Assembly (NCBI RefSeq): GCF_030813695.1
Contig: NZ_JAUSVA010000002.1
Coordinates: 2,666,001-2,730,000, forward strand
Direction: 5' to 3'
DNA length: 64,000 nucleotides
Source: Kitasatospora herbaricolor
Lineage (GTDB): Bacteria; Actinomycetota; Actinomycetes; Streptomycetales; Streptomycetaceae
Below the pieces are notes generated by a model, which saw only the letters and a program-made list of their open reading frames with translations, had not been told where the DNA came from and made no database searches. Every line of letters begins with the position of its first letter. The first letter of the stretch is position 1. The position numbers were made by a program, and so were the translations under genes. This document shows, in pieces, positions 1 to 637 of the stretch.

Positions 1-432
1 GCGCGGGGCCCGCAGGTAGGAGACGGCGACCCCCTCGCGGCGCCAGGGCAGCAGCGAGGCGTGGTGCTCGGTCTCGAAGACGAAGACCCGGGTGCCGGCG
101 GGCAGGGCGCCCGCCAGCAGGTTCAGCGAGTCGGTGGTGGCGCGGGTGAAGACCACCTGGTCGCCCTCGCGCAGGTCGAGGAACTCCCCGACGGTGCGGC
201 GGCTCTGCTCGAACAGGTCGGTGGACAGCTGCGAGAGGTAGCCGGCGCCGCGGTGCACGCTGCCGTAGTAGGGGGCGTAGGCGGCGACGTCGTCCCAGAC
301 CCGCTGGAGCGCTGGGGAGCTGGCGGCGTAGTCCAGGGCGGCGTAGGCGACCTTCTCGCCGTTGACCAGCGGGACCTGGACGTCGTGGCCGAGGACGGCG
401 AGCGGGGCGCAGAGATCGGTGGTCACAGACAT
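1..432 (-). CDS. Aminotransferase class V family protein (3' end outside window)
   Basis: The first 144 codons of a PLP-dependent fold-type I enzyme of the class V aminotransferase/cysteine desulfurase group are visible, starting at ATG 432. The N-terminal region reads LDYAASSPALQRVWD, then YYGSVHRGAGYLSQ, and later FTRATTDSLNLLAGAL and FETEHHASLLPWR. These correspond to the substrate-binding loop, the small-domain start and the cofactor-stacking His of this family. The PLP lysine lies beyond the edge, so desulfurase, selenocysteine lyase or another activity cannot be told apart. A GAGGAG ribosome site lies 9 bases upstream. The leader is a SAM-IV riboswitch with its own promoter, so expression should fall when S-adenosylmethionine is plentiful. 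That points to sulfur or methionine metabolism (inference). The gene is downstream of trpD, but a terminator separates them. Confidence 0.85.
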   Translation of the reverse strand, partial: MSVTTDLCAPLAVLGHDVQVPLVNGEKVAYAALDYAASSPALQRVWDDVAAYAPYYGSVHRGAGYLSQLSTDLFEQSRRTVGEFLDLREGDQVVFTRATTDSLNLLAGALPAGTRVFVFETEHHASLLPWRREGVAVSYLRAPR

Positions 433-438
433 GGGAGT

Positions 439-470
439 GCACTCCTCTGAGGTCAGGACCCCGGGAGTGC
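439..470 (-). promoter_or_regulatory. Putative riboswitch expression platform: Shine-Dalgarno-sequestering hairpin
   Basis: GCACTCC (minus strand, 470-464) is perfectly complementary to GGAGTGC (445-439), which contains the GGAG of the ribosome site. The loop is 18 bases. Formation of this hairpin would hide the ribosome site, suggesting translational control by SAM. How it alternates with the pseudoknot is inferred. Confidence 0.5.
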
Positions 471-482
471 GAGTACGCCGGT

Positions 483-600
483 GGTCCGCGCTTGCCACGC
501 GGACGGACTGCCGCGTGACCCGGTCCTCACCCAGGGCACCCCGCCACGGACGGAGGGTTGCCGGACAGCAAGCTGGGGCTTGTCGCTGTCACTCATGACC
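483..600 (-). ncRNA. SAM-IV riboswitch (S-adenosylmethionine aptamer)
   Basis: Read on the minus strand from 600 to 483, the RNA begins GGTCATGAGTGACAGCG and carries the SAM-IV hallmarks in order. P1 pairs GGTC at 600-597 with GACC at 525-522. P2 pairs GACAGC at 590-585 with GCTGTC at 569-564. The core GGCAACCCTCC follows and closes with GGGTGCC at 540-534. A 7-bp stem, CACGCGG/CCGCGTG, comes next, then the terminal GGCAAGCGCGGACC that forms the SAM-IV pseudoknot side. Recognition is by comparison with the actinobacterial SAM-IV consensus recalled from the literature, not by a covariance search. The aptamer begins at or within a base of the predicted transcript start. Confidence 0.9.
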
Positions 601-608
601 TGGCGAAA

Positions 609-637
609 ACATTAGGTGGCGCCCGCCTGATGGTCAA
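609..637 (-). promoter_or_regulatory. Sigma-70-like promoter of the riboswitch/aminotransferase transcript
   Basis: On the minus strand, TTGACC (637-632) and TAATGT (614-609) are separated by exactly 17 bases. This is close to the housekeeping HrdB consensus. The expected transcription start, about 601, falls at the first base of the SAM-IV aptamer. Confidence 0.75.

Follow-up and report, generated by a model that had tools for sequence, protein, structure and literature searches.

What a SAM-IV riboswitch does in front of a class V PLP enzyme, and at which level it does so, is the question raised by a minus-strand locus in the window, the stretch of 64,000 nucleotides of Kitasatospora herbaricolor DNA analysed here. 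The answer favoured here, with reasonable confidence, is that the riboswitch represses a SufS-like gene of the cysteine desulfurase type when SAM is plentiful. This class of riboswitch was reportedly discovered in the work published by Weinberg in 2008. SAM-IV aptamers have a pseudoknot between the P3 loop and the tail. In a covariance search the aptamer is a full-length match to RF00634 at 600-483 (minus strand, model positions 1-116), with 106.6 bits against a gathering threshold of 38 (E 1.3e-18), and it is the sole Rfam match at the gathering threshold within the window. The conserved core is present, no difference from the SAM-IV class was noticed, and binding of SAM is predicted. The P3 loop GUCCG (547-551) could pair with the tail CGGAC (488-484) to form the pseudoknot. 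A 50-base linker separates the aptamer from the ATG start codon at 432-430; the position 5' of a sulfur-metabolism-type (SufS-like) gene in an actinobacterium agrees with membership in the class. The nearest named relatives of the locus are from Kitasatospora.

Transcription probably starts with the first base of the aptamer or one adjoining it. The -35 hexamer TTGACC (632-637, minus strand) is followed after 17 bases by the -10 hexamer TAATGT (609-614). A TANNNT hexamer begins exactly 14 bases 5' of the aptamer in all 36 Kitasatospora-type leaders (34 of them distinct), and TTGA occurs 36-38 bases 5' of it in 34 of the 36. A strict sigma-70 consensus scan detected no promoter at the window leader, and TAATGT has only three of six consensus bases; the promoter is nevertheless well supported, because the hexamers are conserved across the related leaders. 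The likeliest +1 is A601, as judged from the spacing and from the CA that precedes the aptamer in the 36 leaders. The original prediction, made from the letters of the window, had named the same two hexamers and the same aptamer, both of which are upheld, the aptamer far above threshold. It had also put the start on the first aptamer base; the likeliest start, A601, lies one base earlier.

Two competing helices can be drawn in the linker and the adjoining aptamer tail, both on the minus strand. The Shine-Dalgarno (SD) region, AGAGGAGUGC, lies at 439-448, and its GGAGTGC (445-439) can be masked by the anti-SD strand GCACTCC (470-464). This pairing, also part of the original prediction, is present in the minimum-energy fold of the segment, where the hairpin extends inwards through GGGGU (462-458) with ACCUC (453-449). 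Across 34 Kitasatospora-type leaders (36 less two duplicates, with L089 left out) 95.0% of 403 cells are paired, against 39-66% when one strand is slid by 1-3 columns. The fold energy is unexceptional, for the hairpin (z -1.07, with 28 of 200 shuffles folding as well) and for the full leader (z -0.07). The hairpin is judged real by its conservation in the alignment, not by its energy. No both-sided changes occur in it among the 34 leaders, so that proof by covariation is absent within the genus.

The competing anti-sequestor helix joins GGACC (483-487), which includes the last bases of the aptamer tail, to GGUCC (460-456), and inside this CCGG (478-481) to CCGG (464-461). Its 3' strand, CCGGGGUCC (456-464), is partly shared with the inner stem of the SD-masking hairpin. 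In the 34 Kitasatospora-type leaders the GGAC(C)/(G)GUCC and CCGG/CCGG pairings are 94.9% paired, so that a conserved anti-SD helix faces a conserved competitor, the two elements of an SD-masking platform. The anti-sequestor also lacks both-sided changes inside Kitasatospora. The evidence for compensation comes from relatives. In 89 Streptomyces-type leaders 96.6% of 680 cells are paired, and changes such as GGACCCC/GGGGUCC to GGAUCCC/GGGAUCC keep the helix; in shuffles that ignore kinship, the nine both-sided cells were matched by none of 500, and the count of two pairs carrying such changes by 212 of 500. Other families have GGGCCCG/CGGGCCC or GGGUUCGC/GCGGACCC in this place. The helix is reduced to a run of four bases in L077 and is absent from four Streptomyces-type leaders (L034, L037, L133, L163). 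For the window alone, a run of five was reached by 34 of 100 shuffles of the locus. Such single-locus shuffles are weak in G+C-rich leaders, and for the anti-sequestor only conservation across loci counts.

These elements suggest an OFF switch. With SAM bound, the P3 loop would keep the tail CGGAC in the pseudoknot, the anti-SD strand would pair with the SD strand, and the ribosome could not start. Without SAM, the tail GGACC would pair with GGUCC; this would open the sequestering hairpin at its inner stem and free the SD. Binding of SAM can compete with the anti-sequestor because the 5' strand of that helix overlaps the aptamer tail. The two states of the window leader cannot be told apart by modelled energy, with -19.8 kcal/mol when the tail is held and -20.9 kcal/mol when the anti-sequestor is forced. 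The modelled openness of the SD is 0.20 in the OFF and 0.21 in the ON state for the window, and 0.26 and 0.44 for the mean of 33 leaders (one of the 34 was dropped from this test). In the window leader the ON state brings no gain in SD openness because GGAG UGCA CUCC can refold locally. Control of the gene is probably exerted by masking of the SD.

Other ways of reading the leader can be weighed against this. The hairpin over the ribosome site might arise incidentally where a leader is rich in G+C and its SD is conserved, the riboswitch acting in some other manner. The unexceptional fold energy and the lack of both-sided changes in the genus would fit, but the pairing is kept beyond the SD core, far above the slid controls, and an analogous CCCUCG/CGAGGG-like pairing is found in Streptomyces-type leaders (62% of 85 leaders have a run of at least six, against 12% after shuffling), which makes this explanation improbable. 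Alternatively, SAM might act mainly on transcription, the untranslated leader ending early through Rho or at a hairpin that lacks a T run, with masking of the SD as just the trigger. In the available part of a report on Streptomyces clavuligerus, a premature transcript with SAM-IV, its 3' ends lying before the gene, is described for the class V aminotransferase gene CRV15_21540, whose ratio of CDS to leader reads is among the most extreme (PMC8269248). The same logic, a translational platform combined with Rho, is described for the mycobacterial Mbox in the part of PMC12810186 that was available. A stem of at least four pairs also follows the stop codon of a mini-ORF in 89 of 89 Streptomyces-type leaders (0.37 when shuffled). 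The window leader, however, has no such mini-ORF between aptamer and gene, and the terminator scan found neither an intrinsic terminator with a T run nor any terminator-like site there. For this locus, early termination as the main effect appears rather unlikely, though termination may contribute. Translational control, as originally proposed, is still the best reading of the leader, weakened by the premature transcript of S. clavuligerus and by the undecided energies.

The identity of the enzyme presents a similar choice. The gene begins at 432 and runs off the window (1-432, minus strand); in the genome (L003:5053-6432, minus strand) it encodes a protein of 459 amino acids with the Pfam domain Aminotran_5. 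The best NCBIfam model is SufS (TIGR01979), and E. coli SufS matches with an E value of 1.8e-51. An alignment with 12 homologues that are 46-77% identical to the window protein has H60, R61, H123, N174, D199, Q202, H224, K225, R372, C377 and R413 invariant in all 13 proteins. K225 is the PLP lysine and C377 is the cysteine at the SufS loop position; the other SufS-type catalytic and cofactor positions, His, Asn, Asp and Gln, are in place as well. The loop motif R-x-G-x-F-C-A-H is found in all 151 loci compared and the strict pattern S-[AG]-H-K-[LMV]-Y in 143; the presence of HHA and HK-x-Y-A is uninformative in this set, whose loci were first selected by these two motifs. SufS enzymes are the nearest solved structures to the predicted one (mean pLDDT 80.7; best Z 39.7, rmsd 2.4 over 385 residues), which also has a segment of low confidence near 390-406, lacking in more distant homologues. 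The protein might instead be another PLP C-S lyase of the class V fold, or an aminotransferase using a sulfur amino acid. Its score of 259.8 bits does not reach the curated SufS cut-off of 475.1, while a separate SufS in the same genome (L180) scores 584.2, and its loop reads RDGLFCAHP where that of E. coli SufS reads RTGHHCAMP. Set against the conserved catalytic residues and the structural neighbours, this second identity is doubtful, and the enzyme is likely a SufS-like paralogue and cysteine desulfurase, though under the formal cut-off. The original prediction of a class V enzyme is upheld, and the PLP lysine and catalytic cysteine that it left to be looked for are both there; its vaguer label, aminotransferase-like, is better replaced by SufS-like.

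It had further been proposed that the switch would make the enzyme assignable to a pathway. A place in the sulfur or SAM economy is indicated; the step is not fixed. The genes around it, as far as tested, are not SUF genes, a difference from SufS itself. The upstream neighbour carries the Pfam domain Glycos_transf_3 and is presumably trpD-like, and a convergent gene on the other side has an Lrp/AsnC-type ligand-binding domain. The stretch from the trpD-like gene to the riboswitch promoter contains a G+C-rich inverted repeat of 13 bases (688-714), possibly an end-of-transcript hairpin to judge from its sequence; no T run follows it, and the terminator scan did not report it. A pathway could not be read from neighbouring genes: in eight loci of other families, compared by eye and with Pfam naming of three neighbours of one locus, none was common to different families. 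Two loci of one family (L173 and L176) have housekeeping-type neighbours in common.

The linkage of switch and gene is found well beyond this genome. SAM-IV was detected in 70 of 70 genomes searched in the genus, 197 of 200 in the family and 188 of 296 in the class. Among 86 loci chosen by their SAM-IV (the top-scoring ones and the two of this genome, not a random draw), 71 carry the enzyme, some of them in other families as homologues with 43-55% identity. Conversely, the SAM-IV core lies upstream in all of 80 loci chosen by the enzyme, the best 80 of more than 580 and close relatives of one another. In the 29 same-genus loci of the window kind (L001, L006-L033) switch and gene always occur together, which makes the role of the enzyme in the sulfur economy testable. 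The locus would thereby tie a conserved actinobacterial desulfurase-like paralogue to control by SAM. The pairing itself is already known: in the available parts of the two reports, SAM-IV precedes S. lividans SLIV_26975 (PMC8079986) and S. clavuligerus CRV15_21540 (PMC8269248), genes annotated as cysteine desulfurase or class V aminotransferase. From their annotation, both presumably belong to the window enzyme family.

Streptomyces-type leaders differ from that of the window in usually having a mini-ORF between switch and gene. A frame of six codons (x-x-x-R-M-R-stop), followed by a hairpin, faces the switch in 94 of 147 enzyme leaders (within L034-L063 and L097-L168, e.g., L050:1606-1704, between the riboswitch and the enzyme gene) and in none of 37 Kitasatospora-type leaders. 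The genomes searched in the same family, Streptomycetaceae, supply 29 of the 94; the other 65 come from named records and are Streptomyces apart from a few Actinacidiphila and Streptacidiphilus and a single record labelled Microtetraspora. In 89 aligned cases (five were removed as duplicates or cut ends) the start codon is GTG in 83, ATG in five and TTG in one, and two variable codons and CGA ATG CGN TAG follow. The last Arg codon varies silently (57 CGA, 19 CGC, 13 CGT). A constraint at the nucleotide level is also possible, because the CGA before ATG never varies. Altered forms occur in three further leaders (L055, L112, L138). The string CGAATGCGNTAGGGC is present once each in 64 of 150 family genomes and in none of 39 of the window's genus, and its reversed control matched three genomes; comparison of coordinates with the SAM-IV matches listed places it directly behind SAM-IV in at least 56 of the 64. 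The stem noted above starts no more than two bases from where the stop codon ends, has at least five pairs in 63 of 89 leaders (0.12 when shuffled), and is followed by sequence that is about 80% pyrimidine. The enzyme starts 57-291 bases after the mini-ORF in the 43 leaders with a match from residue 1. Four leaders (L103, L118, L130, L148) were left out of the mini-ORF count for their differing aptamer tail. In these the SAM-IV core is present, the tail is changed and shortened near the next SD and the usual anti-sequestor is seemingly missing; in three of the four a similar frame begins in the stretch compared.

In this arrangement the riboswitch would seem to gate the translation of a putative leader peptide, encoded by the mini-ORF, with an attenuator behind it. 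In the open-access literature searched, no paper describing SAM-IV together with a mini-ORF of this kind turned up. By analogy, the nearest precedents found would be two mycobacterial systems, the Mbox with a small upstream ORF (PMC12810186) and the B12 riboswitch-uORF (PMC11260477). As far as the available parts of these papers go, both combine a riboswitch with premature termination and with control of translation in or next to a small upstream ORF. Ligand and peptide are different, and the likeness is to the leaders of the Streptomyces relatives, not to that of the window.

A broader reading can be offered tentatively. In Streptomycetaceae SAM-IV may often gate a sulfur-amino-acid leader peptide instead of the main start, and the ribosome on that peptide would decide termination at the next hairpin. 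A single leader would then respond to SAM as well as to a charged sulfur amino acid; at the enzyme gene the window's genus would have a short form, with the SD hairpin placed directly on the gene. The leader peptide could be the six-codon Arg-Met-Arg-stop mini-ORF, or a longer one with an end of the D-L-x-R-x-x-x-x-L-C type behind other SAM-IV copies. One aptamer would be wired to two outputs in sister groups, direct masking of the SD and a mini-ORF with a hairpin. This contrast would be a natural experiment on how riboswitches gain leader-peptide attenuators, and the comparison of leader peptides is the part most deserving experiment.

The longer frames are exemplified by the second SAM-IV of the K. 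herbaricolor genome (79.1 bits; L004:5908-6143, G000:C2:6920908 onwards). It is followed by a frame of 31 amino acids ending ASSLCR and then by an AAA/LuxR-type regulator gene. The peptide passes NCBIfam NF042934, 'putative leader peptide', with 28.4 against a cut-off of 27. By score it resembles the cis_reg_atten leader peptides of that model; it differs in sitting directly behind a SAM-IV aptamer, and it lies outside the window locus. The genomes searched in the genus show 26 SAM-IV copies beyond one per genome, this one included. In the first 13 a frame ending LCR or LCPR follows SAM-IV in every case; six pass the NF042934 cut-off and seven score 15.4-20.8. Related frames (H-[IV]-D-L-x-R or L-D-I-D-L-x-R, then Cys) follow nine of the other 13, several of them running past the Cys. 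A Cys leader-peptide-like frame thus lies behind 22 of the 26 copies (L183-L207 and that of K. herbaricolor), and no Cys-type frame was found in four, the weak SAM-IV matches L197 and L198 and the strong ones L201 and L204. Divergent SAM-IV pairs about 250-265 bases apart occur in two genomes, L201/L202 (G052:C4 near 7566500) and L204/L205 (G066:C418 near 16700); in each pair a Cys-type leader frame was found at one copy and none at the other. No gene for this enzyme lies downstream of one further strong SAM-IV (L177/L207; G068:C5, the SAM-IV of L005; 113.1 bits); behind it comes a Cys-type leader frame, and the 11-kb stretch that contains it also has genes for luciferase-like monooxygenases.
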